Assembly: GCA_945902215.1 (NCBI GenBank)
Contig: CAMDML010000001.1
Coordinates: 1-64,000, forward strand
DNA from: Klebsiella pneumoniae
Lineage (GTDB): Bacteria > Pseudomonadota > Gammaproteobacteria > Pseudomonadales > Pseudohongiellaceae
Direction of reading: 5' to 3'
Length of the DNA stretch: 64,000 nucleotides
The notes beneath the pieces are model-generated. The model worked only from the letters and a program-made list of their open reading frames with translations. It ran no database searches and was not told where the DNA came from. Below, in pieces: positions 27,472 through 58,558 of this stretch. Position 1 is the stretch's first letter, and each line of letters begins with the position of its first letter. A program made the position numbers and the translations under genes.

Positions 27472-27649
27472 GGCGCTTTTCCGCAAAAATTACGGCCGGT
27501 CTTGCCGAAGCAGTCGGTCACTGGTTGCGGCAGCTTACAAGGGGATGTCAGGCCCGGCAAACGCATTTATATGCGGTTGCCGGGCACTGATGCGTGCAGG
27601 AGGCAGCTACACAGTCAGTATAGCGACCGCTTTGCGCAGTTCAGCCAGA

Positions 27650-27847
27650 GGGTTAGCTCTGCTCGGCACCCATTCGAGCACTGTGGAAGCCGGCCGCATG
27701 GCAGCAGAATCGGGCGTAAAGACTCTGGTGTTGAATCACCTGATACCCGGCGGTCTCGACCCACTGCCCGATGAGTCATATATGGAAGGAGTACGCGAGC
27801 ATTTCGCGGGCGAGGTCATTTTCAGCAAGGATCAGCTCGTGCTGTGA
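27650..27847 (+). pseudogene. Remnant of an MBL-fold (RNase Z-like) hydrolase
   Basis: About 65 codons ending in TGA at 27847 encode T-H-S-S-T-V-E-A-G-R-M-A-A-E-S-G-V-K, then L-V-L-N-H-L-I-P-G and a tail E-H-F-A-G-E-V-I-F-S-K-D. This is the C-terminal third of metallo-beta-lactamase-fold hydrolases of the RNase Z/AtsA type, where both His residues bind zinc. The N-terminal H-x-H-x-D-H motif is absent from this strand, and the upstream frame reads as unrelated sequence. It lies divergently from the Hpt-REC-REC gene and directly before fmdB. Confidence 0.65.
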
Positions 27848-27878: not shown

Positions 27879-28133
27879 ATGCCAATCTTCGAATACAAAT
27901 GCCGCCAATGTTCCCTCCAGTTCGAGAAACTGGTGCGCAACGATGCTTTGCCTGCCTGCCCTGAATGCCAGGGCGCTGACGTGGAAAAGCTGCTGTCGCT
28001 GCCCGGCATCAGCACGCAGAAATCGCGCGGCCGCACGCTCAAGATCGCCAAAACCGCGGCCGGCAAGGTGAAGCGCGACCAAGCGCATGCCCAGCGCGAG
28101 TACGAACAGCATCACATCAACGACCATCACTGA
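27879..28133 (+). CDS. FmdB-family zinc-ribbon protein
   Basis: The 84-residue protein starts at ATG 27879 with M-P-I-F-E-Y-K-C-R-Q-C, the hallmark of FmdB/CxxC_CxxC_SSSS proteins. Two CxxC pairs (C-R-Q-C and C-P-E-C) would bind one zinc. The C-terminal half is basic then His-rich (H-H-I-N-D-H-H). The family was named from a gene beside formamidase in Methylophilus and is suspected to be regulatory, without firm proof. It precedes the decarboxylase-like gene by 27 bases on the same strand. Confidence 0.85.
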   Translation: MPIFEYKCRQCSLQFEKLVRNDALPACPECQGADVEKLLSLPGISTQKSRGRTLKIAKTAAGKVKRDQAHAQREYEQHHINDHH

Positions 28134-28160: not shown

Positions 28161-28973
28161 ATGAAAACAACACCCGATATGAAATTCTCCAGACGCGTTT
28201 TAGTTGAATCCTTGGGCAGCGCCGCGGTATTGAGCGCGTTAGGTGTTTCCGTGCAGGCGGCGGAACCCGCCAGAAAGCTCGGTTTGATTTTTCCTCCTGC
28301 GGGACGTGGTGTGCCGGAAGAAGGGCTGGCACTTTACGGTGACCGTATCGAATATCTGATTGAAAACCTCGGCCTCGAAACGATGACACCGGAGGGCTAC
28401 GATGCCGTGCTCAGCCGCATTGCCCCAGCTGCAGAAAAACTCGCCGCACGCGGCGCCGAAGCCGTGGTCATTGCCGGCACCTCACTGACTTTCTACCAAG
28501 GCGAAGCTTACAACCAGGAGGTGACGCGCCTTGTCCGCGAAGCAACCGGACTTCCGGTCACTACGATGAGCACTGCGGTGATCGAGGGTTTGAAAAGCGT
28601 CGGTGCCACCCGCGTAGTGGCGCCTACAGCCTACAACGAGGAAGTAAACGCCAGATTGCGCGCCTTTCTGACTGAGCATGGTTTCGAGGTGATGGCGGTG
28701 CAGGGACTTGGGGTTGAGGCAGTTGGCGACATCAATCTGGTCAAACAACCCGAACTGCTCGAGTTCTGCGTGAAGGTAGCGCAATCAGCGCCGGAAGCGG
28801 ATGCTGTGCTGGTGTCCTGCGGTGGTCTGCGCACACTGGAAATTCTGGCGCCGCTCGAAAGCCGCACCAACTTGCCGGCAGCATCGAGCATGCCGCATGC
28901 CTTGTATTACGGCGCGAAGCTGCTGGGCATGGATGCGCAAGTTGCTGGTTATGGCCGCTTGATCGAATCCTGA
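28161..28973 (+). CDS. Exported arylmalonate decarboxylase-like protein
   Basis: The 270-residue protein aligns closely with bacterial arylmalonate decarboxylase: T-P-E-G-Y-D-A-V (76-83), A-G-T-S-L-T-F-Y-Q-G (105-114), T-T-M-S-T-A-V, P-T-A-Y-N-E-E-V-N (155-163), V-S-C-G-G-L-R-T and a terminal G-Y-G-R-L. The catalytic Cys220 is present, and Gly106 occupies the position where Asp/Glu racemases have their second cysteine, so the decarboxylase arrangement holds. An N-terminal S-R-R-V-L-V-E plus hydrophobic stretch to V-Q-A-A looks like a Tat signal; known enzymes of this type are cytoplasmic. GGGAA precedes the ATG. The natural substrate is unknown. Confidence 0.75.
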   Translation: MKTTPDMKFSRRVLVESLGSAAVLSALGVSVQAAEPARKLGLIFPPAGRGVPEEGLALYGDRIEYLIENLGLETMTPEGYDAVLSRIAPAAEKLAARGAEAVVIAGTSLTFYQGEAYNQEVTRLVREATGLPVTTMSTAVIEGLKSVGATRVVAPTAYNEEVNARLRAFLTEHGFEVMAVQGLGVEAVGDINLVKQPELLEFCVKVAQSAPEADAVLVSCGGLRTLEILAPLESRTNLPAASSMPHALYYGAKLLGMDAQVAGYGRLIES

Positions 28974-29049: not shown

Positions 29050-30279
29050 CTAGTTGCCCACGCCCGCCAGGAAGCGGTACTTGGGCAAACGCGTCAGTAT
29101 TAGCGCAGAGCCGACCAGAATCACGGCCGCCGTGAACAGCCCTTCATCGTAAGAGCCGAACTGTTGGCGCATCCATGCCAGACCCGTAATCCCCAATCCT
29201 GAGCCCAGATAGAAAAAGGCGAAGATCACCCCGTAGGCTTTCCCGTACGCGAGATTGCCGTAGTAGCGCTTGATCAAAAATGCCAACACATCGAATTCCG
29301 CGCCGAGCAGGAAGCCCAGCAGAATCGCGCTGAGAATTGCCGCGTCCGGATAGAGTGCGTACAACAGACAGCCGATCGCGCCACCCACCGCAACCAGTTG
29401 CATCACACGCGGCGCAAAGATGTGGTCAATGAGGAAGCCAACTGTTACACGCGCCAACAACAAAGCGAAACCAAATACAGTTGACACCAACGCGCGCGCA
29501 TCTCCTTGCGACCAACCGGCTTCGGTCAACAGAGGTACTTGCTGACTGACCAGACTGGTTGCAGTCAGGCCCAGCATGAAGAACACAACGCTCAGCAAAA
29601 TGAACGAGCCTTCATGCCTCAGCTCCTGGAACGGAATGCCCTTGGCGGCATCGTTGTGCTGTTTATGTGCAGCCGCTTCTGCGGCAGTGGGTTCGCGCAG
29701 CAGAAAGTACACCACTGGCCAGCTCACGCAAATCACCAGCACCCCGAGCCCCAGCAGCGCTCCGCGCCAGCCGTAGAGGGGAATCATTGCAGCCGTGAAC
29801 AGAGGCACCAAGGTGCTACCCACGCCGATACCCCCATTGGCACAGCCAAGCGCAAACCCCAGGCGCCGGTCGAACCATTGCGACACCGCCTGCAGATAAC
29901 CGAGAGGCCAGAGCCCGGTCGCCAGTATTGGTACCAGTGCCCACAACAGGTAATAGACAAACAGATTGTTTGGCGTGAAATACAGCGCCATCAGGCTCAG
30001 CCCAAACAAAGGAATCGAGGTCAGCACGGTGCGGCGCGGGCCGAAGCGATCAACGAGAAAGCCCTGCAGTGGCGACACCAGCACAATCATGTATGCCACC
30101 AGCGTGAAGGCGAATGAGACCTGCACGCGACTCCAGCCGAACTCCTGCTCGATGGGCTGTATATAGGCGCTGATCGTTAGCACGGCGATGACACTCGGGC
30201 CGAGTGCCAGGCCTATTACAGAACCCAGTGTGGTCAGAATTCCGGACTTGCTCGCTTCGGAGCCGGATTTGCTATTCAT
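29050..30279 (-). CDS. MFS transporter
   Basis: The 409-residue protein has twelve predicted membrane segments and the MFS loop 2-3 motif G-F-L-V-D-R-F-G-P-R-R near residue 75. The second half has a weaker copy (G-F-L-I-D-H-I-F-A-P-R). Segment 1 and the F-G-W-S-R-V-Q-V-S-F sequence resemble the oxalate/formate and monocarboxylate carrier group, so an organic anion is a plausible substrate. It is convergent with the decarboxylase-like gene, which itself would act on a dicarboxylate. The cytoplasmic loop at about 205-225 is charged. Substrate is inferred only from family. Confidence 0.8.
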   Translation of the reverse strand: MNSKSGSEASKSGILTTLGSVIGLALGPSVIAVLTISAYIQPIEQEFGWSRVQVSFAFTLVAYMIVLVSPLQGFLVDRFGPRRTVLTSIPLFGLSLMALYFTPNNLFVYYLLWALVPILATGLWPLGYLQAVSQWFDRRLGFALGCANGGIGVGSTLVPLFTAAMIPLYGWRGALLGLGVLVICVSWPVVYFLLREPTAAEAAAHKQHNDAAKGIPFQELRHEGSFILLSVVFFMLGLTATSLVSQQVPLLTEAGWSQGDARALVSTVFGFALLLARVTVGFLIDHIFAPRVMQLVAVGGAIGCLLYALYPDAAILSAILLGFLLGAEFDVLAFLIKRYYGNLAYGKAYGVIFAFFYLGSGLGITGLAWMRQQFGSYDEGLFTAAVILVGSALILTRLPKYRFLAGVGN

Positions 30280-31934: not shown

Positions 31935-32555
31935 ATGCCAGAGGACAGATTGTTGAACAACACAGACAAAACGCAGTTCGAATTCAACCGCAGGCAATTG
32001 TTGTGCGGCATGTGCGCGCTCGGTGCGGGCCTGCCGGTGCTGAATGCTGCAGCGCAGGAGGCAACCACTATGGCCCCGCCGCAGATAGACGATCTTCTGG
32101 CGTATGCCTATGGCGATAAAGCCGGGCAGGCCGTTGCAGTAAACGATCTCGATGTGGCTACGCAGCAAGTGTTTGTGTTCGCGCTGGATCCGGCCACGGG
32201 CAAGATGCGCAATGGCACCCGCATGAATCAGGTGCTGCTCGTCAGACTTGATCCTGCCACGCTGACGCCGGCAACCACTGCGCGCAGTGTCAACGGCCTT
32301 GTTGCCTATTCCGGTGTCTGCAGTCACACGGGTTGCGATGTCACCGACTGGAACGGTGAGTTCAACAGGTTCCAGTGCCCTTGTCATGAGTCGCAGTTCG
32401 ATCCGGGCGACGGTGCACGCGTTGTCGGCGGCCCCGCGCCGTGGCAACTGGCCGCACTGCCGCTGAAAGAAAGCAACGGAATGGTTGCGGTGGCGGGGGA
32501 GTTCGAAGGCCGGCTGGGGTTTTTGCAGCCGGGACAAAATCCGTTTGGCATTTAA
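31935..32555 (+). CDS. Tat-exported Rieske [2Fe-2S] protein
   Basis: The 206-residue protein has a Tat-type signal (N-R-R-Q-L-L-C-G-M ... G-A-G-L) and a Rieske cluster site C-S-H-T-G-C then C-P-C-H-E-S, with the expected two His and four Cys. The D-P-G-D-G-A-R-V-V-G-G-P-A-P proline loop covers the cluster. It precedes the haem-free PQQ dehydrogenase by 28 bases and is likely its electron acceptor or a linked carrier. The ATG at 31935 is used; a TTG at 31953 is better placed behind GAGGA and may be the true start. Arsenite-oxidase small subunits have similar domains, but no arsenite-oxidase large subunit is present. Confidence 0.85.
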   Translation: MPEDRLLNNTDKTQFEFNRRQLLCGMCALGAGLPVLNAAAQEATTMAPPQIDDLLAYAYGDKAGQAVAVNDLDVATQQVFVFALDPATGKMRNGTRMNQVLLVRLDPATLTPATTARSVNGLVAYSGVCSHTGCDVTDWNGEFNRFQCPCHESQFDPGDGARVVGGPAPWQLAALPLKESNGMVAVAGEFEGRLGFLQPGQNPFGI

Positions 32556-32583
32556 AAAAACCTAACCTGTGAAGGGGAAACAC

Positions 32584-34308
32584 ATGAAGGACTTCAACAA
32601 GCAAATTCTGTTGGCTGCAATCATCGCCGCACTACCAGTTCTGGTGTCCGCACAAGATATTGCCACGATGCGCAACGTTTCTGATGAACGCTTGCGTAAT
32701 CCCGAGCCGGAGAACTGGCTGATGTTCCGCCGCAGCTACGATGGTTCCGGGTTCAGTCCGCTCGACCAGATTACTCCGGACAATGTCGCGCGCCTCAAGC
32801 CGGTGTGGACACTTTCCACTGGTGTCACCGAAGGCCACCAGAGTCCGCCCATCGTCAACGACGGCATCATGTACATCACGACGCCGCTGAATCTGGTGTA
32901 TGCGGTGAATGCCGCCACCGGCGATGTGTTGTGGGAATACCGCAGACAGTTGCCGTTTGATCTGAGCCTGATCCATCCTACCAACCGCGGTGTAGCGCTG
33001 TACGGCGACAAAATCTACATGGCGACTTCCGACGCAATGCTGGTCGCACTCGATGCGCGCACGGGCACGGTGGTGTGGGAGAAAGCTGTCGAGGATTACC
33101 GCACCGGTTACTACATGACGATGGCGCCACTGGCGGCCAAGGGCAAGATCATGGTCGGCGTGTCCGGCGGTGAGCGCGGCATTCGCGGTTTTGTTGCAGC
33201 GCTCGATGCTGAAACCGGTGAGCAGGTGTGGAAGACCTATACGATTCCTGCGCCTGGCGAACCCGGCAATGAAACCTGGCCCGGTGAATCATGGAAAACC
33301 GGTGGGGCGCCGGTGTGGGTCACTGGCACCTTCGATCCTGAATTGAATATTTCGTACTGGGGCACCGGCAATGCAGGTCCATGGGTTGGCGATGCGCGGC
33401 CCGGCGACAACCTCTACGCAAACTCGGTAATCGGACTTGATGTCGACACCGGCGCGTTGAAGGGTTATCACCAGTACCATTGGAATGATTCGTGGGACTG
33501 GGATGAAGTCTCCCCGCCGATGCTGTTCGACGTGACCCGTAACGGTCGCACCTTCCCGGCACTGGTCCATGCTGGGCGCAATGGTTATCTGTGGGTGATG
33601 GAACGCAAGGCTGATGGCATTACTTTTGTTGATGCCAAACCCTTTGTCTACCAGAACGTGTTCACTTCAATTGACCCGGTTAGCGGACGACCCACCTATA
33701 ACGAGGATGCCAAGCCCGGCCTTGGCAAGCCCGGCTCATTCTGCCCCTCGCTGTCGGGTGGCAAGAACTGGACGCCGGCCGCATACAGCCCACAAAGCGG
33801 CCTGATGTATATCCCCGCCAATGACAACTACTGCTCAACCTTCGCCGGCGCACCGGTTGAATACCGTCCGGGCCAGAACTTCACCGGGACCACGGCCAGC
33901 ACTGCGTACATTATCGAAGGCGCAGACCACATCGGCGAATTGCAGGCGTGGAATGTCAATACCGGTGAGAAAGTATGGACGCACGAGTTCGAGTTGGCCA
34001 ATTGGGGTCCGGTGCTGGCGACGGGTGGTGGCGTGGTGTTCAGCGGTGGTACTGCCGACCGTTACTTCCGTGCCTTTGATGCCGCATCCGGTGAGGTGCT
34101 GTGGCAGCAACGTTTGAACTCCGGCATCACCGGCGTGCCGACCAGCTTTGCAGTGGATGGCGTGCAGTACATCGCTATCCAGTCCGGCTGGGGTGTTGAT
34201 GCGCTGCGTATGCAGAACCGGCTCGACACCATGCAGGGCCGCACGAACATCGTGCCGCAGGGTGGTGTGGTGTGGGTGTTTGCGGTCGACAATGAACAGC
34301 GCCAATGA
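32584..34308 (+). CDS. PQQ-dependent dehydrogenase without cytochrome domain
   Basis: The 574-residue periplasmic quinoprotein has a signal peptide (ending V-L-V-S-A-Q) and eight-bladed propeller tryptophan-docking repeats such as A-L-D-A-E-T-G-E-Q-V-W. Metal/PQQ residues are visible: Glu in S-G-G-E-R-G-I-R-G, Asn in Y-W-G-T-G-N-A, and catalytic Asp305 in S-W-D-W-D-E, with Asp307 two residues on, the mark of lanthanide-dependent enzymes. The usual adjacent cysteine pair before N-R-G is replaced (S-L-I-H-P-T-N-R-G). No CxxCH is present. It would oxidise an alcohol or aldehyde. The ATG at 32584 follows AAGGGGAAA. Confidence 0.88.
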   Translation: MKDFNKQILLAAIIAALPVLVSAQDIATMRNVSDERLRNPEPENWLMFRRSYDGSGFSPLDQITPDNVARLKPVWTLSTGVTEGHQSPPIVNDGIMYITTPLNLVYAVNAATGDVLWEYRRQLPFDLSLIHPTNRGVALYGDKIYMATSDAMLVALDARTGTVVWEKAVEDYRTGYYMTMAPLAAKGKIMVGVSGGERGIRGFVAALDAETGEQVWKTYTIPAPGEPGNETWPGESWKTGGAPVWVTGTFDPELNISYWGTGNAGPWVGDARPGDNLYANSVIGLDVDTGALKGYHQYHWNDSWDWDEVSPPMLFDVTRNGRTFPALVHAGRNGYLWVMERKADGITFVDAKPFVYQNVFTSIDPVSGRPTYNEDAKPGLGKPGSFCPSLSGGKNWTPAAYSPQSGLMYIPANDNYCSTFAGAPVEYRPGQNFTGTTASTAYIIEGADHIGELQAWNVNTGEKVWTHEFELANWGPVLATGGGVVFSGGTADRYFRAFDAASGEVLWQQRLNSGITGVPTSFAVDGVQYIAIQSGWGVDALRMQNRLDTMQGRTNIVPQGGVVWVFAVDNEQRQ

Positions 34309-34333
34309 ATAGACACCCAACTCAGGCGGTAAA

Positions 34334-35077
34334 GTGTTGAAACCGGTAAAAGTCACAACCTTGGTTCTGCTGCTCAGCGCCGTGGGTGTTGTCATGTTCG
34401 CCTACGGCCAGCCCTTTCGCCGGGGGCAGATTTCGCAGAACACTCCCCCCAACACCGAGTTTGTTGCCGCGCGCCTGCACTTTGGCACCAACGGCGCCAT
34501 TGGCCATATGGGCTGGTCGCACAATTACCCGGACTCGGACCAGAATCTCAACGAGTTCCTCGTACGCGCCACGCTGCTTGATGTGGAGGAATTGTCGTTT
34601 CGCATTGTGGAACTCGGCAGCGAGGAGGTGTTCGATTATCCCTTTGTCTATATCTCGGAGCCGGGTGAGATGGAACTCACCGATCAGGAAGTTATCAACC
34701 TGCGTGAGTTTATTGCGCGCGGTGGTTTCATCCTGATGGATGATTTCGACGGGTCGGAACAGTGGGGGCAAATGCGTTCGCAGGTGCTACGCGCCTTTCC
34801 GCAGACAGATTTCGTACCGGTACCTGCCGAACACGTGATTTATCGTGTGCATACACCGCTGGACGATTTACAAGCAATGTCTGAATACGTGCCCGGAGGC
34901 AACATCACGTATTACGGTCTGTACGACGCCAGCGGTCGGTTGGCGATTATGGCCGGGCACAATAACGACCTCGCCAATTTCTGGGACTGGTACGGTGACG
35001 GCTCGATGCCGCTGAAACCATCAACGGATGCGTTCCGGCTCGGCACGAATGCCGTGATCTATTCGCTGACACACTGA
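34334..35077 (+). CDS. Secreted DUF4159 domain protein
   Basis: The 247-residue protein starts at GTG 34334 (TTG 34337 also possible) with a signal peptide V-L-L-L-S-A-V-G-V-V-M-F-A. The mature protein has A-R-L-H-F-G-T-N, W-S-H-N-Y-P-D-S-D, Y-P-F-V-Y-I-S-E-P-G and G-G-F-I-L-M-D-D-F, the DUF4159 pattern. The domain is glutamine-amidotransferase-like in fold elsewhere but lacks a known activity. It lies 25 bases downstream of the PQQ dehydrogenase and is probably in the same operon, which hints at a role in maturing or supporting that system. Confidence 0.75.
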   Translation: MLKPVKVTTLVLLLSAVGVVMFAYGQPFRRGQISQNTPPNTEFVAARLHFGTNGAIGHMGWSHNYPDSDQNLNEFLVRATLLDVEELSFRIVELGSEEVFDYPFVYISEPGEMELTDQEVINLREFIARGGFILMDDFDGSEQWGQMRSQVLRAFPQTDFVPVPAEHVIYRVHTPLDDLQAMSEYVPGGNITYYGLYDASGRLAIMAGHNNDLANFWDWYGDGSMPLKPSTDAFRLGTNAVIYSLTH

Positions 35078-35079
35078 TC

Positions 35080-35769
35080 ATGCGTAGCGTAGTTCTCAAT
35101 GCCACCGCGCGCTGTCCGCGTTGCAGTATGACACCACGCTGGTGCATCTGTTCTGCTCACGTGGCTATCCAGACTCGCTTGCAACTGGACTTGTTGACCC
35201 ACAAGCGGGAAATATTCCGTCCGAGCAGCACCGGCAACCTGATCACACGCTTGTTTCCTGCTGCGCGCCGCCATGTGTGGTATCCCGAACAACCACTGAC
35301 GCATTCACAAGTGACTGTTCCGGTGCGCGAAGTGTGGGTGCTCCATCCCAACGGCTTACCGGCGCCAGTTGCGGCAGATCCTGCGCAAGTGCAAGTTCTG
35401 TTACTGGACGGTTCGTGGAGCGAGAGTGCCGGAATGGCGCGCACGGTATCGTCGTGGGGGCGCTTGGTAAAGTTGCCGCTGGCAGGTGACAGTCGTTTCT
35501 GGTTGCGCGCGAAACAGGAAGGTGGGCGTTATTCAACAGCGGAGGCGCTGTTGTTCCTGCTGGAATTATTGGGCCTTGATGCGCAACGCGCGGCACTGCA
35601 AATTCAATTCGAACTGCATGTCTATGCCAACTTGCGCGCACGCGGCAACGCGGAACTGGCCGCGCAGTTTCTGGAAGACTCCGTGATCCGCACGGCGCTG
35701 CCGGAGTTTCTGGCGCAACTCCACACGCGCCGGCCGGAGCCTCAGCGCTATCAGGAGCCTCAGCGGTAA
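35080..35769 (+). CDS. DTW-domain tRNA-uridine aminocarboxypropyltransferase
   Basis: The 229-residue protein carries the DTW-domain signature: C-P-R-C ... W-C-I-C near the N-terminus, H-K-R-E-I-F-R-P-S-S-T-G, L-L-L-D-G-S-W (the D-T-W position, here D-G-S-W) and a late Y-S-T-A-E-A. Members such as E. coli TapT transfer the 3-amino-3-carboxypropyl group of SAM to uridine 47 of tRNAs (acp3U). It begins two bases after the DUF4159 stop, yet its function is likely independent. The C-terminal tail is Gln/Arg/Pro-rich with a short E-P-Q-R repeat. Confidence 0.85.
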   Translation: MRSVVLNATARCPRCSMTPRWCICSAHVAIQTRLQLDLLTHKREIFRPSSTGNLITRLFPAARRHVWYPEQPLTHSQVTVPVREVWVLHPNGLPAPVAADPAQVQVLLLDGSWSESAGMARTVSSWGRLVKLPLAGDSRFWLRAKQEGGRYSTAEALLFLLELLGLDAQRAALQIQFELHVYANLRARGNAELAAQFLEDSVIRTALPEFLAQLHTRRPEPQRYQEPQR

Positions 35770-35918
35770 AACACCAAACTCAACCCGTCGAAAGCCGAGC
35801 TGCTGCCTTCGAGTTCGCTGGTCCCCAGCCAGAACTCCTGAAGATTGTCCGTGTTCGTGAGTGGAAACATCCGGCTGTAGGCCGGTTGACGCCGATGGCA
35901 AGCAGCGCCGGTTGCCAT
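35760..35918 (-). other. Possible small gene or 3' remnant
   Basis: A 52-codon open frame on the minus strand ends inside the 3' end of the DTW gene. Its second half reads as plausible protein (N-L-Q-E-F-W-L-G-T-S-E-L-E-G-S then A-F-D-G-L-S-L-V-F-Y-R). The first part looks non-coding and there is no good ribosome site. It could be the surviving C-terminus of a lost gene at the end of the leftward DUF6152 operon. No family is recognised. Confidence 0.25.
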
Positions 35919-35924
35919 CGGCTC

Positions 35925-36317
35925 TCAGTCTGCGCCGAGCACAACACCTATTTCAGTGCCGTCCGGGGTACGCACAGCGGTAACGTAACCGCCGTCTTCA
36001 GCATTACGCATCGGCGCGATGCGAATGGTGATGATATCGCCCAGCGTGAACATGTCCGGCTTCAGGCCTTGGCGCATCATGTTGTTGCGGCTGTGCCCTT
36101 CGAACTCGATGTTGCGAGTGCCGCGTGCATCGTCGGTAACTTCCAGAATCAGTTTCATGTGGGGGTTGGCGAAGCGGGCTTCCATGACCTTGCCTTCGAC
36201 CACAACGGTATTGCGGAAATCAAACTGCGCTGCCGAATGGTGGGCAAACGTCGGGGTGGCTGCCAAAACTGTCAACAGCAAGCCGGCTACTGCACTCATT
36301 AATTTTTTCACGGTCAT
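35925..36317 (-). CDS. DUF6152 family periplasmic protein (copy A)
   Basis: The 130-residue protein has a signal peptide (cleavage after P-T-F-A) and begins its mature part with H-H-S-A-A-Q-F-D, the DUF6152 hallmark. It continues with V-E-G-K-V, F-A-N-P-H-M-K-L and G-D-I-I-T-I-R. The fold is probably a small OB-like beta barrel; the exposed N-terminal histidines could bind metal. Function is unknown. It is the last gene of a six-gene leftward operon and follows a partner of the H-W-E-G-D family by 33 bases. Three further DUF6152 domains occur in this window. Confidence 0.8.
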   Translation of the reverse strand: MTVKKLMSAVAGLLLTVLAATPTFAHHSAAQFDFRNTVVVEGKVMEARFANPHMKLILEVTDDARGTRNIEFEGHSRNNMMRQGLKPDMFTLGDIITIRIAPMRNAEDGGYVTAVRTPDGTEIGVVLGAD

Positions 36318-36350
36318 TACCTCTCGTGGAGTTACTGAAAAATTTACGGG

Positions 36351-37136
36351 TTATTCCTGCACCATCTTCAGGCCGGCGGCCTCGTACAGCTCTGTCATCT
36401 CGTCGAGCCATTTCGGCTCTGAGCATTCGTAGGTCATCACGTGGTAGTCAGACATTCCCTGCCAGCGCTTGGTAGTGGTAAAGGGTTCTTCCAGCCACAG
36501 CGGGTCAGTCAGCGTCATTTCCGCAACGAGGACACGCGAGCCGTCTTCGAGTGGCGGATCCAGATAATAATCTTCGCGCACCGTGGCTTGATTGCTGTGT
36601 GGGTAACGTGAATCCACCTGGGTCTTGAGACGTGTGGTCTCGACGATCAGATGGTCGCCTTCCCAATGCGCTGTGGCGTAACCGTTGCGCTCGGGGAAAA
36701 AGCTCTGGGGATCGCGGATTTCGGCGCCGAGGTAGAAGCGGCGGACTTCGGAATGGGCTTCATAGATGACAAAAAGCTGGTCAGGACGCTGGATAATTTC
36801 CATCGGATAGCCGCCCGAGCCCAGCATCGAGCCCGGCATGCCGGAGCCAACGCAGGCATTGCCAGCGCCGTAGTTGGTGCCTTCAGTGACAGAGAGGAAT
36901 TCGGCTTGCGCTGCCAGCGCTGCGGCCGTCAGTTTGGGTGCTCCGGGTGGTGGGTTAAAACCACCGGGGGCGCCGTTGCCGCGGAAGGTGGTCCAGGCGC
37001 CGCTGAAATCAGGTTGTTCCTGCGCCTGCGTGGTGGGCGCAGTGCCAAGAGTAGTGGCCAGGACGGCCAGCGCCATGAATACTGTGAGACTGCGTTTGGC
37101 TGTGAGACCGCGGTTAAATGTTGTTGTGATGTGCAC
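36351..37136 (-). CDS. Secreted HWEGD-family protein (partner A)
   Basis: The 261-residue protein starts at GTG 37136, which has AGGGG six bases upstream; a longer in-frame start lacks such a site. The signal peptide ends T-T-Q-A-Q. The mature part opens P-D-F-S-G-A-W, then has G-G-Y-P-M-E-I-I-Q and A-H-W-E-G-D-H-L-I-V-E-T, and W-L-E-E-P-F. The same order of motifs is found in the products at 38024, 39024 and 46512 and in the fusion at 42790. The family is not one I can name. The motif repeat suggests a beta-barrel binding protein. It is adjacent to DUF6152 copy A. Confidence 0.7.
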   Translation of the reverse strand: MHITTTFNRGLTAKRSLTVFMALAVLATTLGTAPTTQAQEQPDFSGAWTTFRGNGAPGGFNPPPGAPKLTAAALAAQAEFLSVTEGTNYGAGNACVGSGMPGSMLGSGGYPMEIIQRPDQLFVIYEAHSEVRRFYLGAEIRDPQSFFPERNGYATAHWEGDHLIVETTRLKTQVDSRYPHSNQATVREDYYLDPPLEDGSRVLVAEMTLTDPLWLEEPFTTTKRWQGMSDYHVMTYECSEPKWLDEMTELYEAAGLKMVQE

Positions 37137-37214
37137 TGGTATCCCCTCATTCGATAAACCGGTAAATGATATCGGGGCTTGGTCTTTCACGCCATGCCCG
37201 TGCTGCATGGAATC

Positions 37215-38006
37215 TTAATTGTTGCCCTTGAATTGCGGGGGACGTTTTTCATTGAATGCAGTCATGCCTTCGCTGCGATCCGGTGCGTGGATGCAGCGCT
37301 TGTAGAGTTCGATTTCGCGCTGGTAACCACCGTGTAAATCGTTTCTCAGCGTCGCGTTGAGAGCCTGTTTTACCTGTCTGACAGCGAGCGCTGACGCGGA
37401 CTGGATGCTGCTTGCGACCTCCAGCACGGTGGTGAGCAGGCTGGACTGAGGCACTACTTTATTGAGTAGTCCCCAGGCCAATGCCTCCTCTGCGGAGAAT
37501 TGTGCACAAGTCGTGCACAGTTCTTTGGCGCGGGCCAGACCCACCGCGCGTGGCAGCCATTGCGTACCCATTGCACCGGGTATGAAGCCGAGTTTCGGTT
37601 CGGGAAACGCGAAGCGCGCTTCGGGGCAGCCGTAGGCGAAATCGCAATTGAGCACAAGTTCCAGGCCGCCGCCGAAGGCCGCACCATTCACTGCGGCGAT
37701 CACGGGCGGCGGGCACTCATGCATCGCCAGCATCATCTGCTCCAGCACGGCGTGCTGTTGCAACCAAAGTTCCGCAGAGATGCCGTGGCGTTCCTTGAGG
37801 TCAGCACCGGCGCAAAAACATTTGAGCCCGGTGCCGGTCAGCACCACTGCACGATACGAGTCAGGGTTTTCCGCCAAGTGTTGCCAGATGTTCAGCAACT
37901 CGCGCGTCATTATAGTGTCGAGTGCGTTGCTGACTGCGGGACGGTGCAGTTCGATGAGCAGCACACCCTCGTTGACGCGAGACGTGCGCAGGGTTGAATA
38001 CGCCAT
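37215..38006 (-). CDS. Enoyl-CoA hydratase/isomerase family protein
   Basis: The 263-residue crotonase-fold protein has C-A-G-A-D-L-K-E-R (oxyanion loop), N-G-A-A-F-G-G-G-L-E-L (first oxyanion/catalytic region), and E-P-K-L-G-F-I-P-G-A-M-G. This pattern is close to methylglutaconyl-CoA hydratase-like enzymes, but the exact substrate cannot be fixed. The ATG at 38006 gives a normal N-terminus. A GTG at 38024 overlapping the preceding stop codon (TAGTG) is an alternative and would imply coupling. It is the only cytoplasmic enzyme in an operon of otherwise exported proteins. Confidence 0.85.
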   Translation of the reverse strand: MAYSTLRTSRVNEGVLLIELHRPAVSNALDTIMTRELLNIWQHLAENPDSYRAVVLTGTGLKCFCAGADLKERHGISAELWLQQHAVLEQMMLAMHECPPPVIAAVNGAAFGGGLELVLNCDFAYGCPEARFAFPEPKLGFIPGAMGTQWLPRAVGLARAKELCTTCAQFSAEEALAWGLLNKVVPQSSLLTTVLEVASSIQSASALAVRQVKQALNATLRNDLHGGYQREIELYKRCIHAPDRSEGMTAFNEKRPPQFKGNN

Positions 38007-38023
38007 GGTGTGCAACGCAGGCA

Positions 38024-39001
38024 CTATTCGGCAGCCTGGGCCGCGTCTCGTTCTGCTGCGCGCTGGCCCGACAGGATGTTCGCCATGCCGTAGTTGCCTT
38101 CGGTGCAGGCGTATTCGAACAAGAGACCGTCGAGAGTGGTCAGTGGATACACTCCGCCCCAGGGTTCGTCCCAGGTCTCGGGGTCCTCGACACGGAAACT
38201 GTATTCCACGGTGTCAGCATCCTGCCGCGTGAGGCGTTCCGTCACGTGCATGTTCTCTGAGCCATTGCGCCACGCGGCATTTGGATGGAAGCCAAGGGTT
38301 TCAACCACGAGGGTGTCGCCTTCCCAGTGGCCAACCGAGGTACCGTTCCATTGCGGCAGGCCATCTTGTGGAGCAGCACCGCCACTGGTGGGGATGATGC
38401 GCGGGTCGCCCATTTCACCTTGAATGATCACGTAACCGGGACTCTGGAAAATCTGCAGATTACTGTTGTAACCACCGGGCAGAATCGGTGGCAAAGTGCT
38501 GGACCACACAATGCAGCGTTCGGTGAGTCCGCGCATCTCGGGGCCATCGTATTCATGTCCCAGCCGCACGGCGGCGCGGGCATCACGGCGCGCGATTGCG
38601 GTGTCATTCAGTGGCGGAATGCGCCCATTGGCAGGGAAGGTGATGATCGAGGTGCGCATGTTCTCCGACGTTTTACCTTCGTTTGCGCTTAGTGCATAAG
38701 TACCGAAGTCGTAGTGCACATCTTCAAGGGTGCCAGGTTCTGTTTCGTCGTCCTGATCAACGGTTTCAAGCTGCAGTTGCTGGTATTTCACGGCTTCGTC
38801 TGCGGTGAAGAATTCTTTTTCGCCGAGTTCGACTGGCCGTTCCAGCGGCGCGAGGGTGAACTCACTAAAGACGCCGGCGATATCCGGTTCGCCCCACGCG
38901 GTTTTTGGTTGTTGGGCATGCGCCGTGAATGATGCAGCGAGCAGCAGCAGGCTCAGCGCAGCATGGGTCTGCAATTTATTGTGTGAAGGTGTGTGTGTCA
39001 T
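38024..39001 (-). CDS. Secreted HWEGD-family protein (long form)
   Basis: The 325-residue protein starts at ATG 39001 with AGGAG seven bases upstream; an open frame extending to 39517 is not coding. The signal peptide ends T-A-H-A-Q. The mature sequence opens W-G-E-P-D-I-A-G-V-F and later has L-Q-I-F-Q-S-P-G-Y-V-I-I, S-V-G-H-W-E-G-D-T-L-V-V-E-T-L-G-F, H-V-T-E-R-L and E-P-W-G-G-V-Y. It shares the core with its neighbours but has about 60 extra residues near the N-terminus with an R-D-A-R-A-A region. It lies between the hydratase and the shorter paralogue at 39024. Confidence 0.7.
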   Translation of the reverse strand: MTHTPSHNKLQTHAALSLLLLAASFTAHAQQPKTAWGEPDIAGVFSEFTLAPLERPVELGEKEFFTADEAVKYQQLQLETVDQDDETEPGTLEDVHYDFGTYALSANEGKTSENMRTSIITFPANGRIPPLNDTAIARRDARAAVRLGHEYDGPEMRGLTERCIVWSSTLPPILPGGYNSNLQIFQSPGYVIIQGEMGDPRIIPTSGGAAPQDGLPQWNGTSVGHWEGDTLVVETLGFHPNAAWRNGSENMHVTERLTRQDADTVEYSFRVEDPETWDEPWGGVYPLTTLDGLLFEYACTEGNYGMANILSGQRAAERDAAQAAE

Positions 39002-39023
39002 GGGCATTCTCCTCACTCGCTCC

Positions 39024-39818
39024 TCATTCGGCCGCTGGTTTGCGCAGGTGGCCATAGAGTTTTTCTTCGGCGTAGGGTTCACATTTGAATTCGAGCAGAC
39101 GGTAATTGTCATCAACAATGCGATACAGCGGCATGCGCAGCGTCCATGGCTGCGAGTACACGGACGCATCATTGATCGTGGCTTCGTACTCCATGTGGTT
39201 CGGACCGAGCATGGTGTAGCGTTCGGTGATGCGGGCACCGGCACTCGCATAATTGCCGGCACGGTCCAGCCAGGTTTGGCCATTAAGGCCGCTGACGTCG
39301 ACAACGAAAGTGTCCCCCTCCCAGTGTGCGTTCGACCAGCCCAGCCAGCTGTCGAGCGGCGCTTCTTCGGTACGACCCAGCGCGATGCGGCGCAGGCCGG
39401 TAGCGTACTGGTAAACGATGACGACCTCGTTGACGTTCTGGAAAATCTGGAAAGGGTAGGGCATGTACGTGGAGCGCGGCACACCGCCGAGGTAGCACTT
39501 GCCTTCGGGGTCCTCAAGCAGACGGTTGGTGAAATTGCTGTCGCGCTGGGTGAGTGCTTCCGGCAGATACGGAATCTTGCCGCCGTCGACTACGCCGAGG
39601 CCTGGTGGCACGGCAAACTGCGCACCGAGTGCGGACACGACCGGGTATGCGGCCACATGCGGTTCAATATTCCAGTGCGCGGTATTCAGGGATTGCCATA
39701 CACCACTGAGATCAGGGTGACCGTCAGCAGCACGCGGGATTGCGACCAAGGGTTCAGCGCACACCGCGCGTACGACGAGCAGCGTGAGGGGCAATACAGC
39801 AGAGAGTATGCGCTTCAT
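39024..39818 (-). CDS. Secreted HWEGD-family protein (partner B)
   Basis: The 264-residue protein has a signal peptide (L-P-L-T-L-L-V-V-R-A-V-C-A) and mature motifs H-P-D-L-S-G-V-W, Y-P-F-Q-I-F-Q-N-V-N-E-V-V, A-H-W-E-G-D-T-F-V-V-D-V, A-R-I-T-E-R-Y and S-Q-P-W. Its start overlaps the stop of DUF6152 copy B by four bases, so the two are translationally coupled and probably act together. Conserved aromatic and acidic residues in the shared core could form a ligand pocket. No enzyme motif is recognised. Confidence 0.72.
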   Translation of the reverse strand: MKRILSAVLPLTLLVVRAVCAEPLVAIPRAADGHPDLSGVWQSLNTAHWNIEPHVAAYPVVSALGAQFAVPPGLGVVDGGKIPYLPEALTQRDSNFTNRLLEDPEGKCYLGGVPRSTYMPYPFQIFQNVNEVVIVYQYATGLRRIALGRTEEAPLDSWLGWSNAHWEGDTFVVDVSGLNGQTWLDRAGNYASAGARITERYTMLGPNHMEYEATINDASVYSQPWTLRMPLYRIVDDNYRLLEFKCEPYAEEKLYGHLRKPAAE

Positions 39819-40237
39819 TGCAGGGGGTCGCCTGGTGCACGCGAGCCATCGAAAAACAGTTCGCGGCCATCAGCAAAAGTGATGTCGCGGCCCACGGCTT
39901 TGTTCGAGCCATCGCGTGCCTGGTAACCGCTGACGACAAGTTCGGAACCGACAGGAATGGTTGCTTTCGTCACGCCGCGCCGTATCAGCGCATTCGGGCT
40001 GCCGCCTTCGACCATCCATACGACAGCGGTGCCACTGTCATCTTTGACCTCGACATGAATCCACGAATGCGGATTGATGAGCTCAACCTTGGTCACGGTG
40101 CCGTGCAGGGTCACCGGTCGGCCGGCGTCGAATTCCATGGAAAAAGCATGATGGGCTAGCACGCCGCTGGTTGTGCCGAATGTGGCAAGCACGAGCATTG
40201 CGCAAGAAATAAGGATACCCAGAGCCGTTGACCGCAT
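39815..40237 (-). CDS. DUF6152 family periplasmic protein (copy B)
   Basis: The 140-residue protein has a signal peptide ending G-V-L-A followed by H-H-A-F-S-M-E-F-D, then G-T-V-T-K-V-E-L-I-N-P-H-S-W-I-H-V and a late G-R-D-I-T-F-A-D-G. It is the first gene of the leftward operon and diverges from the PQQ dehydrogenase at 40484, so both may answer to the same control sites in the 246-base gap. The four-base overlap with partner B supports a functional pair. Confidence 0.82.
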   Translation of the reverse strand: MRSTALGILISCAMLVLATFGTTSGVLAHHAFSMEFDAGRPVTLHGTVTKVELINPHSWIHVEVKDDSGTAVVWMVEGGSPNALIRRGVTKATIPVGSELVVSGYQARDGSNKAVGRDITFADGRELFFDGSRAPGDPLQ

Positions 40238-40381
40238 ACTGCCCCCTTTGCATGTGCGTGAGTTCTGTCCGTAAGTTCCGGTCGTGATCTGCTGTCACTT
40301 TGAGTCCGGAATGCCAGCTCAGAATGCAGTGGGCGGTGGCGTCTGTCAATGCTGGAAAGGGTGCCTGACAAGTCCGGGCCA

Positions 40382-40407
40382 GTGGTGCACAATATCAGGT
40401 GTACCAC
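40382..40407. promoter_or_regulatory. Candidate operator palindrome between divergent operons
   Basis: GTGGTGCAC (40382-40390) and GTGTACCAC (40399-40407) are reverse complements with one mismatch and an 8-base spacer. The site lies in the gap between the leftward DUF6152 operon (start 40237) and the rightward PQQ dehydrogenase (start 40484). A dyad of this size suits a dimeric regulator. No regulator gene is adjacent, and no promoter hexamers can be placed with certainty. Confidence 0.4.
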
Positions 40408-40483
40408 GCTTGCCCATGGCTTGCCAAAAAGTACCTGCCAAATCGCAACGATCCAAAAAACTATTTCCAAAGGGGATAAATCC

Positions 40484-42688
40484 ATGAAACACAGCCGTTT
40501 GTTTGCTGCAACCGCGCTGGCCTTGGCCGTGTTGTCCGGCTGCCAGCCTGCTGAGCAAGAATCGACCCAAGCCACCGACTCTGCCGCTGCACCCGCCGCC
40601 CAAACTGCATCCACTGCAGCCAATGTCACTACTGAGCGCCTGCTCAATGCCGACGCCGAGCCAGGCCAATGGATGATGAATGGCGGTACTTATGAAGAAA
40701 CCCATTACAGCGCGCTGAATGAGATCTCGCGCGACACCATCGACCGCCTCAGCCTCGGCTGGTTCGCCGACTACGACACCAACCTGTCACAGCAAGGCAC
40801 ACCCCTCTATGTTGATGGTGTGATCTACGTCTCCACCGCATGGAGCTCGGTCTACGCATACGATGCACGTACCGGCGCGCAGCTCTGGCATTTCGACCCG
40901 AAGACACCCAAGGAAATTGCGATCAAGGTGTGCTGCGGTATCGTCAATCGTGGCATTGCTGCTTATGAAGGCAAAATCTACATCGGCGCACTCGACGGCA
41001 ACCTGTATGCCATCGACGCGGCCACCGGCCAGGAACTCTGGCACAAGCAGACTGTTGACGTGGACAAGCAGTACACCGTTACCAGCGCGCCGCGCATCAT
41101 CAAAGGCCAGGTCGTTATCGGCAACTCCGGTAGCGAGTTCGGCGTGCGTGGCTATCTCGGTGCCTACAATGCCACGACCGGGGAAGACCTGTGGCGCGTA
41201 TACACCGTACCCGGCAACCCGGAACTTGGTTTTGAAAACCCGACCATGGCTATGGCTGCCAAGACCTGGAGTGGCAACTGGTGGGAACTGGGCGGGGGCG
41301 GCACCGTATGGGACGCTATCGTGTATGACGAAGTGAACAACCTCATCATGTTCGGCACCGGCAACGGCACTCCGTGGGATCAGCGCGTGCGTGATCCGGA
41401 AGGTGGCGACAACCTGTTCGTAGCCTCGATTCTCGCAGTGAATGCCGACAGCGGCGAGTACGTCTGGCACTACCAGACTACCCCGGGCGACACGTGGGAC
41501 TATGATGCGATGAGCCCGATCATGCTGCTCGATCTCACTTTCGACGGCGTCGAGCGTCGCACCGTGGTACAGCCGAACAAGAACGGCATGATGTATGTGC
41601 TTGATGCCGCCACGGGTCAGATACTAAAGGGTGATGCGTTCACCGAAGTGAACTGGAACACCGGCATCGACATGGCCACCGGCCGTCCAATTGAAGTGCC
41701 GGCTGCCCGTTACGATCGCGACAACATCTACAACCTGGCTCCCGGTGTACAGGGTGGTCACGGCTGGCATGCCAATGCCTGGAACCCGGCAACCGGCTTG
41801 ATCTACATTGCCGCACAGCGTGCGTACTTCGTCATGCGCACTGCCGAGAACTTCGTTGCCAATCCGCAGGGTACCAACCTTGGTATCGACATGGGCGCAA
41901 GCCTCCTCTATTACAAGGACAACCCGGATGCACCGCGTGAATTCGTCGGCTACGTGTCGGCGTGGGATCCGGTAGCGGGCAAGGAAGTCTGGCGCAGTGA
42001 AGAACTGGGTGGTCCGACGGGCGGCGTACTGTCCACTGGCGGTGGTCTGGTGTTCTCTGGCGGCGGCAACAACAACAACGTGTTCCGTGCATTCAACACC
42101 GAGACTGGCGCGAAAGTGTGGGAGTTCAACACCCAGACTGGCATGGTTGCCGCGCCGATCACCTATGAACTGGATGGCAAGCAGTACATCGCCGCCAGCG
42201 TTGGTATCAATCAGGCTGGCAACTACTACGCGCCGAACTATTCGCGTTTGCTTGTGTTCACCCTGGATGGCGCTGCAGTGTTGCCAGAACCCGTGAGCTT
42301 CACCGCACCACAGCTGAGCCCGCCGCCGATGACTGCCAGTGCTGAAGTCGTGGCCCATGGTGCTGAGGTCTATAATGCGAACTGCTCGACTTGTCATGGC
42401 AACGGTGGTGCGGCACGTGGCGCCAACTTCCCGAACCTGCTGGTGAGCCCGATGCTGCATTCGCAGGAAGGCTTCGACGCTATCGTACTGGGTGGCGCTC
42501 GGCAGCAAAACGGCATGGTGAGCTTTGCCGACCGCGTTACTGCGGAAGACAGTGCTGCAGTTTTGGCGTATCTGGTTTCGCGCGCCACCGAAGCGCTGGC
42601 TGCACAGCAGGCTCCGCCACCTATCCAGACAGCGCCAGAGCCGGCGGAAGATGTGCATGATGAAACTGAAGCTACCGAAGAAAATTAA
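40484..42688 (+). CDS. PQQ-dependent dehydrogenase with C-terminal cytochrome c (lipoprotein)
   Basis: The 734-residue quinohaemoprotein starts at ATG 40484 behind AGGGG. L-A-V-L-S-G-C is a lipobox, so the protein would be lipid-anchored. The propeller has Cys150-Cys151 (V-C-C-G-I-V-N-R-G), Glu in S-G-S-E-F-G-V-R-G, Asn in G-T-G-N-G-T-P-W and catalytic Asp339 followed by Asp341 (T-W-D-Y-D-A). The Asp pair is typical of lanthanide-dependent alcohol dehydrogenases. A class I cytochrome c follows with C-S-T-C-H (634-638). The C-terminal tail is acidic. Downstream are the DUF6152 fusion and an SDR. It likely oxidises an alcohol and passes electrons to its own haem. Confidence 0.92.
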   Translation: MKHSRLFAATALALAVLSGCQPAEQESTQATDSAAAPAAQTASTAANVTTERLLNADAEPGQWMMNGGTYEETHYSALNEISRDTIDRLSLGWFADYDTNLSQQGTPLYVDGVIYVSTAWSSVYAYDARTGAQLWHFDPKTPKEIAIKVCCGIVNRGIAAYEGKIYIGALDGNLYAIDAATGQELWHKQTVDVDKQYTVTSAPRIIKGQVVIGNSGSEFGVRGYLGAYNATTGEDLWRVYTVPGNPELGFENPTMAMAAKTWSGNWWELGGGGTVWDAIVYDEVNNLIMFGTGNGTPWDQRVRDPEGGDNLFVASILAVNADSGEYVWHYQTTPGDTWDYDAMSPIMLLDLTFDGVERRTVVQPNKNGMMYVLDAATGQILKGDAFTEVNWNTGIDMATGRPIEVPAARYDRDNIYNLAPGVQGGHGWHANAWNPATGLIYIAAQRAYFVMRTAENFVANPQGTNLGIDMGASLLYYKDNPDAPREFVGYVSAWDPVAGKEVWRSEELGGPTGGVLSTGGGLVFSGGGNNNNVFRAFNTETGAKVWEFNTQTGMVAAPITYELDGKQYIAASVGINQAGNYYAPNYSRLLVFTLDGAAVLPEPVSFTAPQLSPPPMTASAEVVAHGAEVYNANCSTCHGNGGAARGANFPNLLVSPMLHSQEGFDAIVLGGARQQNGMVSFADRVTAEDSAAVLAYLVSRATEALAAQQAPPPIQTAPEPAEDVHDETEATEEN

Positions 42689-42701
42689 GTAGATGAACAA
42701 C

Positions 42702-42749
42702 GGGGTCAGAGTGGCTTGAACATCTCAAGTTGCCCTGGCCCCTTTTTTT
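42702..42749 (+). terminator. Rho-independent terminator after the PQQ dehydrogenase
   Basis: An 18-bp stem pairs 42702-42719 (beginning GGGGTCAGAG) with 42725-42742 (ending TGGCCCC), with several G-U pairs and one mismatch, followed by seven T residues (42743-42749). It follows the stop codon by 13 bases and probably separates the dehydrogenase from the fusion-protein gene, at least partly. Confidence 0.85.
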
Positions 42750-42789
42750 GCCCCAGATTTATTCAAGTTTCCGCATTGGAGCTCGCGTC

Positions 42790-43872
42790 ATGAAAAAAGC
42801 CTTGCTTGCCACGCTCGTTGCTGCACTTGCCGTTCCTGCCAGCGCCCACCATTCTGTCACCACCCATTTCGACATGACCCGCAGCATTGAAATCCGCGGC
42901 GTAGTCGTTGATTTTAAATTGCGCAGCCCGCATGCCTCACTTGTTGTCGATGGCCAAAGCTATATCGACGGCGTACTGCAGGATGAAACCGTGCAGCGCT
43001 GGGAGATTGAATCTTCCGCCGCGCCGGGCTTGCGCACGATGGGGATTACGCCGGAGACTTTCAAACCCGGCGACGCGATTACTGTTGTTGCGGCTCCCAA
43101 CCGTCAGCCGGACTTCCGCTTCGTCAATTCTTCCAACTTCACCGACAGCAAGGGCACTCGCTACAGCCGCGCCACTGCGGTACGCGCCCAAAATGCAACG
43201 GTGGATGCCGTCTCAGCCCAGCAAGGCCTCGCGCGCATGGCAGGCCGCTGGAACGCCCCCGGCGGTTTTGGCCGCCCCGAGGGTTCGCCGTTGCCGCTGA
43301 ATGAAACAGGGCGCGCGGCATGGGAAAGCTATGATGCGAAGTTGTCGCCGGCCAATACTTGCGAGCCGATGAATTTTCCCGACATGTTCAACGCGCCGTA
43401 TCTGTTTGATGTCCAGGTGAATGGCAATGAACTCGTGATCCACAACCAGCCCTGGGAAGCAGTACGCACAATTCCCTTGGACAATACCGAAATTACCACT
43501 GTGCCTGCCGGCATCTTCGGTGTGGTGAAAGGACGTCTGGAAGGGACAACGGTAGTACTGGAAAGTGAACGCTTCCCGCCGTCGCGCTGGGGGCTTGGCA
43601 GTGCTACGCAATTTCTCGGCAGTGGCGCCGATATGCCTTCGAGTGAACAGAAGAGGCTGATTGAACGTTTTACCTTGAGCGAAGATGGCCTGACGCTGAA
43701 CTACGACTACACGCTCGAAGATTCAACTTACCTCAGTCAGCCCTTCAACGGCCGTCTGCAATTCACCCGCCTGGCGGCCGCTACGCCGATGTATCCCTAT
43801 GACTGCGTGGTGGAAGCCGCGTCGATGTTTTCGCGTACTCCGGAAGACGCAGCACTTCAGGTGGGGCAGTGA
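42790..43872 (+). CDS. Fusion of DUF6152 and HWEGD-family domains
   Basis: The 360-residue exported protein begins with a signal peptide (A-A-L-A-V-P-A-S-A) and mature H-H-S-V-T-T-H-F-D, i.e. a DUF6152 domain (about 20-130, with F-K-L-R-S-P-H-A-S-L and G-D-A-I-T-V). It continues into a domain with R-M-A-G-R-W, V-V-K-G-R-L-E-G-T-T-V-V-L-E, L-I-E-R-F-T-L and Y-L-S-Q-P-F, matching the order seen in the separate HWEGD proteins. The fusion is direct evidence that the two families work together. It lies between the PQQ dehydrogenase and an SDR gene, with a GTGA overlap into the latter. The ATG at 42790 is well placed. Confidence 0.78.
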   Translation: MKKALLATLVAALAVPASAHHSVTTHFDMTRSIEIRGVVVDFKLRSPHASLVVDGQSYIDGVLQDETVQRWEIESSAAPGLRTMGITPETFKPGDAITVVAAPNRQPDFRFVNSSNFTDSKGTRYSRATAVRAQNATVDAVSAQQGLARMAGRWNAPGGFGRPEGSPLPLNETGRAAWESYDAKLSPANTCEPMNFPDMFNAPYLFDVQVNGNELVIHNQPWEAVRTIPLDNTEITTVPAGIFGVVKGRLEGTTVVLESERFPPSRWGLGSATQFLGSGADMPSSEQKRLIERFTLSEDGLTLNYDYTLEDSTYLSQPFNGRLQFTRLAAATPMYPYDCVVEAASMFSRTPEDAALQVGQ

Positions 43873-44621
43873 GCAGAAAAACGGCCATTGTCACCGGCGC
43901 CAGCAGCGGTATCGGCAGAGCTTGCGCCATCGGTTTGCTGAGGGCGGGCTGGCAGACGGTGTTTGTCAGTCGTCATGCCGAGGCGCTTGCAGCCGCGATA
44001 CGGGACGCAGGCGAAGTGAATGCCGAGGCGCTGGCGCTGACCTGCGATATCAGCAATGCGGAACAGGTAGAGGAACTGTTTGCCAAGGTCATGGCTGCGT
44101 TCGGCCGCATCGACCTGCTGTTCAACAACGCGGGTATCAGCGGGCCGCGCGGCACGGTGGATGAAATATCGGTGACGGAATGGGAGCGCACTGTTGCGGT
44201 CAACATCAACGGCAGCTTCCTGTGCGCACGCGCGGCGTTTGCTGCGATGAAGCAACAACAACCGCAGGGTGGGCGCATCATCAATAACGGGTCCATTGCA
44301 GCCCACACACCACGCCCGCACACCTCACCCTACGCCGTCACCAAACACGCCATCATGGGTCTTACCAAATGTCTCGCGCTAGATGGGCGTCCGTTCAATA
44401 TCGCCTGCGGCCAAATCGACATAGGCAACGTGCGCACCGAGATGACCGTGCCGATGGCACAGGGAATGTTGCAGGCGAACGGCGCGCAAATGAAGGAGCC
44501 GGTGTTCGAGCTGGCTCATGTGGTGGATGCTGTGCTCTACATGGCGAATTTGCCGCCGGACGCGAACGTTCAGTTCATGACCGTCATGGCAACGAAAATG
44601 CCGTATATCGGCAGGGGTTGA
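43869..44621 (+). CDS. Short-chain dehydrogenase/reductase
   Basis: The 250-residue Rossmann-fold enzyme has the cofactor motif T-G-A-S-S-G-I-G (9-16), N-N-A-G (86-89), Ser142 in N-N-G-S-I-A-A-H, and the catalytic Tyr155-x3-Lys159 (Y-A-V-T-K). The GTG start overlaps the stop of the fusion gene by four bases, implying co-translation with an exported protein. SDRs interconvert alcohols and ketones with NAD(P). Asp60 after the second strand and the S-R-H at 34-36 suggest NADP use, though not firmly. Substrate is unknown. Confidence 0.9.
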   Translation: MSRKTAIVTGASSGIGRACAIGLLRAGWQTVFVSRHAEALAAAIRDAGEVNAEALALTCDISNAEQVEELFAKVMAAFGRIDLLFNNAGISGPRGTVDEISVTEWERTVAVNINGSFLCARAAFAAMKQQQPQGGRIINNGSIAAHTPRPHTSPYAVTKHAIMGLTKCLALDGRPFNIACGQIDIGNVRTEMTVPMAQGMLQANGAQMKEPVFELAHVVDAVLYMANLPPDANVQFMTVMATKMPYIGRG

Positions 44622-55508: not shown

Positions 55509-55516
55509 AAAAGTTC

Positions 55517-58465: not shown

Positions 58466-58558
58466 GAGCATTACCCCGGTGAGCCTTGTGTCTGTTTCGT
58501 ATGGCTCGCAGCTTGCCACGCTCTGGCTTAACGCAATCTGAAGCCAGAGAGCCAGCCC

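Follow-up and report, generated by a model that had tools for sequence, protein, structure and literature searches.

The window, i.e., the entire stretch of 64,000 nucleotides that was analyzed, carries an arylmalonate decarboxylase (AMDase)-type gene in a region of flat GC content (0.55 to 0.59 in 4-kb steps). The first-pass annotation had placed such a gene at 28161-28973, with an MFS carrier and an MBL-fold remnant beside it; the coordinates were correct, and both neighbors were found. The features discussed below are as follows (+, forward strand; -, reverse strand).

27590-27847 (+), MBL-fold hydrolase, C-terminal fragment (PDB match weak, E 0.0023; plasmid matches, best E 4e-9)
27879..28133 (+), FmdB-family zinc-ribbon protein, 27 bases upstream of the AMDase gene (TIGR02605, 54 bits; cut-off 31.3)
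28161..28973 (+), AMDase gene, 270 aa, with an N-terminal Tat-type signal (ATG to TGA; profile and PDB matches)
28161..28262 (+), predicted twin-arginine (Tat) signal, residues 1-34, RR at 11-12 (28191-28196; home-made Tat rule and alignment)
28179..28181 (+), alternative ATG start (M7), in frame, which retains the twin-arginine motif
28476..28484 (+), G106-T107-S108 (Bordetella G74-T75-S76), dioxyanion-hole loop with glycine where racemases have cysteine (alignment; roles from Table 4 of PMC4996985)
28632..28634 (+), Y158 (Bordetella Y126), dioxyanion hole (alignment)
28818..28820 (+), C220 (Bordetella C188), catalytic proton donor (alignment)
28896..28898 (+), H246, invariant in the predicted exported clade (14/14) and alanine in the other AMDases compared (alignment)
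29050..30279 (-), MFS carrier (monocarboxylate / oxalate-formate-like), convergent (profile scan)
31935-44621, gene run encoding a Tat-like Rieske protein, two PQQ-type dehydrogenases, a DUF4159 protein, three DUF6152 proteins, and ECH and SDR enzymes
38024-39517 and 39024-39818 (-), members of a large family with no Pfam match (clustering)

Family, fold and catalytic residues

The predicted protein scored 255.5 bits against NF052327 (NCBIfam; E 4.6e-76), above the equivalog cut-off of 225, and 250.6 bits against PF17645 (Pfam; cut-off 25.9, E 1.8e-74), and its best solved structures were the AMDases of Bordetella bronchiseptica (2vlb, E 1.8e-54), in agreement with the earlier AMDase-like call. 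An AlphaFold2 model, made with 21 window and locus sequences as input, had a pLDDT of 89.6 and matched PDB 3ixl with a Z of 37.5 and an rmsd of 1.2, at 42% identity over 233 residues; confidence was 55, 59 and 54 in the blocks covering residues 1-30, 81 to 99 in later blocks and 80 in the last. The maleate cis-trans isomerases 2xed and 4fq5 share this fold (Z of about 31), and the match to the EutA model TIGR02990 (67.9 bits) fell far below its cut-off of 318.

As residue criteria, we used the single-residue positions in Table 4 of Maimanakos et al. 2016 (PMC4996985). The window protein is identical to that table at P14, P15, L40, Y48, G74, T75, S76, Y126, V156, C188 and G189 (Bordetella numbering), and its changes V43M and M159I are both conservative, a kind of change that the Table 4 rule tolerates. 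The criterion motifs LMGTSLSF and ILLSCGGL read IAGTSLTF and VLVSCGGL, similar but not identical; the least conservative of the changes is A for M at the second residue of LMGTSLSF. Cys220, the Gly106-Thr-Ser loop and Tyr158, which the first-pass annotation had named as an AMDase pattern, are all in place and correctly numbered. In related racemases, the position of AMDase G74 is occupied by a further active-site cysteine, as described in part of PMC4996985; the only cysteines of the window protein are residues 203 and 220.

Judged by family and catalytic set, the window protein is an arylmalonate-decarboxylase-type enzyme. It shares with the Bordetella AMDase (EC 4.1.1.76; 3ixl, 3dg9, 2vlb) the fold, the catalytic cysteine, the glycine-for-cysteine swap, and the dioxyanion-hole and hydrophobic-pocket positions, and differs from it by V43M, M159I and an additional predicted Tat signal of about 34 residues.

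Distribution and the twin-arginine signal

Strong AMDase matches were found in 12 of 137 genomes of the window's own taxonomic family, which comprises uncultured Gammaproteobacteria; with the window's, these amount to 14 copies. Another 9 of the 137 genomes gave weak matches only, and nine weak matches (21-23% identity) from another genus of the family had no signal by eye. A 15th family AMDase, L020, was taken from genome contigs and assigned to the family by sequence only. Two genomes carry two signal-bearing AMDases each (L066 and L069 in G027; L072 and L073 in G018). Within the window's own genus, 5 of 11 genomes had no strong copy, so the AMDase may be accessory, although 4 of those 5 are 73 to 88% complete. 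In broader samples, signal-bearing AMDases occurred in 4 of 390 genomes of the order, all of the same family, and in 1 of 369 genomes of the class, the window's own; 2 of 398 genomes of the phylum were above the cut-off, one again being the window's own. A plasmid search returned eight records with identities of 36.6% or less, and the search of viral contigs and phages gave no AMDase match.

The first-pass annotation had taken a twin arginine followed by a hydrophobic stretch to predict Tat export, and the predicted signal gained support from the comparison. In the window protein, RR at positions 11-12 precedes an uncharged stretch of 18 residues; a glutamate four residues past the second arginine counts against export. 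By eye, we would guess cleavage after A33 or A34. A home-made Tat-like rule, which asks that a twin arginine and an uncharged hydrophobic segment after it lie in the first 35 residues, was passed by 14 of 14 family AMDases, the window copy among them, and by 4 of the 75 long frames of the window, of which the AMDase is one. With L020 scored by eye, the signal is present in all 15 family AMDases. The extension is in frame in all 14 copies measured, with lengths of 29 to 52 aa, and the two arginines are the sole invariant residues ahead of the core in the alignment of the 14. Together with the presence of the signal in 15/15 copies, this argues that the N terminus is not an accident of annotation. 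By eye, an AGGA, GAGG, AAGGA or GGAG core lies within 20 bases upstream of 13 of the 15 signal-bearing starts, the ribosome-binding site being weak in the window copy and L020. An apparent internal 'TAG' in G011 falls just ahead of its ATG. The window's own genome encodes TatC (PF00902, 224.5 bits; cut-off 25.1). Two further frames of the window that pass the rule lie at 53880-55520 (-) and 57620-58519 (-).

As controls, we used 15 AMDases above the cut-off, from 11 of 299 genomes of a Burkholderiaceae-like family (the name is a guess) and 4 of 297 genomes of an alphaproteobacterial-type order; one alphaproteobacterial-type match under the cut-off was excluded. These share the NF052327 match and the catalytic residues with the family copies, except that L088, truncated at its 3' end, stops before the cysteine. 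None of the 15 has a Tat-like signal at its likeliest start, which lies about 10 residues or less from the core except in L091, where it may lie 23 before. L031 and L084 pass the rule at a longer alternative start; since their extensions are not themselves hydrophobic, we read these passes as an upstream RR running into the core strand. The first-pass annotation had regarded homologues that start after residue 35 with no signal as the observation telling against export: within the family the prediction stood (15/15 with a signal), whereas the homologues of the other families are of just this kind (0/15). The Tat signal is thus a lineage-specific feature. In a tree of the core alone, with the signal removed and L088 and L020 left out, the 14 signal-bearing AMDases formed one clade with support of 100/100, and the controls fell outside it. 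L069 branches first within the clade as drawn; this copy adjoins a gene for an RPE65-type oxygenase.

Active-site changes and gene neighbors across the clade

Throughout this predicted exported clade, G74, T75, S76, L40, Y48, Y126, C188 and G189 are retained (14/14), and the position of Bordetella G74 is glycine rather than the cysteine of the two-cysteine racemases and maleate isomerases in every member. At the large-pocket position P15, 7 of the 14 have V. We then defined as clade-specific any residue kept in at least 13 of the 14 and in at most 1 of 16 others (the 15 controls and the Bordetella enzyme). Such positions include F44, R49, T74, I141, N159, E186, D190, F202, I228, L229, H246 and L248, among which F44, R49, N159, E186, D190 and H246 set the clade apart from the Bordetella AMDase. 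N159 is next in sequence after the tyrosine of the dioxyanion hole, E186 and D190 adjoin hydrophobic-pocket positions, and F44 and R49 adjoin the large-pocket prolines; to go by their position in the sequence, these residues may face the substrate. Their proximity to the pocket makes a substrate other than phenylmalonate plausible, and activity on arylmalonates cannot be assumed; the clade's substrate may differ from that of other AMDases.

The first-pass annotation had offered the MFS carrier and the MBL-fold remnant as a clue to the natural role, a suggestion that the comparison of loci did not sustain. Like the FmdB, LysM and Rieske proteins of the window, the MFS carrier (searched by tblastn) had no relatives at the 14 related AMDase loci, and among the loci compared the MBL fragment occurs only in copies from the window's own genome. 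The carrier fell below every specific transporter cut-off, its best score being 130.1 bits for SfMCT (cut-off 320), with 93.5 bits for the oxalate/formate family (cut-off 374.85). The MBL fragment had no Pfam match, and two of its four plasmid matches are annotated as MBL-fold hydrolases; a response-regulator gene upstream leaves too little space for a complete gene, and the fragment is likely a decayed remnant.

Conserved neighbors as a clue to function were likewise set aside, as the AMDase of the window's own genus sits in differing places: by eye, next to FmdB and MFS genes in the window, a YihY-like gene at L061, polysaccharide-type genes at L062 and L063, and secretion-type genes at L064, with a PQQ-type dehydrogenase gene beside it at L065. 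Passages of PMC4996985 report mandelate racemase-like genes and TTT, TRAP or ABC transporter genes near known AMDases; none of these was present in the scanned subset of the clade's neighbors. In the related genus g2, a LysR gene, a DUF6152 gene and a gene for an exported protein with no Pfam match lie near the AMDase in several genomes. The last belongs to a family with 16 to 62 matches per genome (12 genomes), a close member of which stands beside the AMDase at five g2 loci. Of the 12 AMDase-bearing genomes, 11 have 23-40 PQQ-type matches and the remaining one has 12; with such abundance, neighbors from either family say little alone. The DUF4159 protein of the window has one relative (L065) among the 14 related loci, and its PQQ-type protein has five matching places in four of them. 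At 5 of the 14 AMDases, the distance to a PQQ-type gene is 4 kb or less, where 1.2 such cases would be expected (P 0.004); we give this result no weight because the 4-kb limit was chosen post hoc, flank lengths were entered by hand, clustered PQQ genes alone were counted and the loci are related. Our search of the open-access literature for DUF6152 together with PQQ found nothing.

Proposed role and competing explanations

Altogether, the data make it quite probable that the window protein is an AMDase-type enzyme that the Tat pathway exports after it has folded in the cytoplasm and that acts in the periplasm on a substituted malonate; we infer export, activity and substrate from sequence, and the signal is a conserved lineage-specific feature. 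Because Tat exports folded proteins, an enzyme relying on one active cysteine could arrive in the periplasm already folded. There, one carboxylate of the malonate would be held by the dioxyanion hole formed by T107, S108, Y158 and G221, while the other would enter the hydrophobic pocket of L72, M75, Y80, V188 and I191 and be lost as CO2 with no cofactor; C220 would protonate the enediolate, and the monoacid product would then be taken up and used. AMDase chemistry is described in these terms in part of PMC12576825: the dioxyanion hole binds one carboxylate, the hydrophobic pocket takes the second, which leaves as CO2, and the cysteine supplies the proton. We think that the substrate is a malonate more polar than, or shaped differently from, phenylmalonate. 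A decarboxylase in the periplasm could not drive a cytoplasmic decarboxylation-antiport cycle, and an exchange of the oxalate/formate type coupled to cytoplasmic decarboxylation would not fit; should the neighboring MFS protein be linked to the enzyme, its task would therefore be to import the product.

That the protein is instead an ordinary cytoplasmic AMDase, its N-terminal stretch being upstream sequence or a defunct signal, appears very unlikely to us. The short N termini of AMDases outside the family, L091 possibly excepted, and the weak ribosome-binding site of the window copy would fit such an enzyme, but the twin arginine is kept in 15/15 copies while the remaining extension diverges, the extension stays in frame at 29 to 52 aa in all 14 measured, and, as read by eye, the ribosome-binding site is good at 13 of 15 starts. 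Export followed by retention on the periplasmic side of the membrane through an uncleaved anchor deserves similarly little credence: L072 has no A-x-A-like site within the scanned stretch, yet the other 13 of the 14 copies do, and the window copy, with cysteines at 203 and 220 only, has none that could hold a lipid anchor.

A more serious, if still unlikely, competitor is that the clade is exported and has moved to another reaction or substrate class of the Asp/Glu racemase superfamily, in which case the AMDase name would be wrong. The clade-specific F44, R49, N159, E186, D190, H246 and L248, the V at P15 in half of the members and the 42% identity to the Bordetella AMDase are consistent with such a change. 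Set against them are the eight retained Table 4 residues, the single catalytic cysteine, as in AMDases, and the NF052327 scores, which exceed the cut-off in the four own-family genomes matched in the order sample.

We call the predicted periplasmic AMDase a Tat-exported variant of a known enzyme, the rare, cofactor-free AMDase having formerly been known without an export tag. We found no report of an exported AMDase in the open-access literature; the signal and periplasm terms in passages of PMC3462710, PMC5014874 and PMC5812351 concern other genes or neighboring transporters, not the AMDase. AMDases serve in making chiral drug acids, and an exported, naturally diverged branch would offer a new starting point for biocatalysis. 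Their natural substrate is described as unknown in the Discussion of PMC4996985, in part of PMC13096762 and in PMC4424294. An exported branch would narrow this question, as the substrate must reach the periplasm.

It is conceivable, though in our view rather improbable, that the periplasmic branch with its remodeled pocket serves aromatic-acid or lignin-type catabolism, decarboxylating malonate-type diacids before uptake and feeding them to protocatechuate 4,5-cleavage; the numerous PQQ-type dehydrogenases of these bacteria might make such diacids in the periplasm from 2-substituted 1,3-diols. If true, an AMDase would have a natural setting for the first time. Protocatechuate 4,5-cleavage genes lie near the AMDase in one related genus, g2. 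At L067, genes for LigK, the CHA aldolase, and for a 4-oxalomesaconate tautomerase, each above its curated cut-off, stand within a few kilobases of the AMDase gene. By sequence clustering, PrpF-type genes adjoin the AMDase at L067, L070 and L071; the copy profiled, that of L067, is the one above the 4-oxalomesaconate tautomerase cut-off. The proximity of LigK, on the AMDase contig and within about 8 kb, was seen in 2 of 12 genomes (G011 and G032), both belonging to one genus, and may therefore go back to a single ancestral event. Each of the 12 genomes has one LigK copy above the cut-off (TIGR02798), which in G000 lies on a contig other than that of the AMDase.
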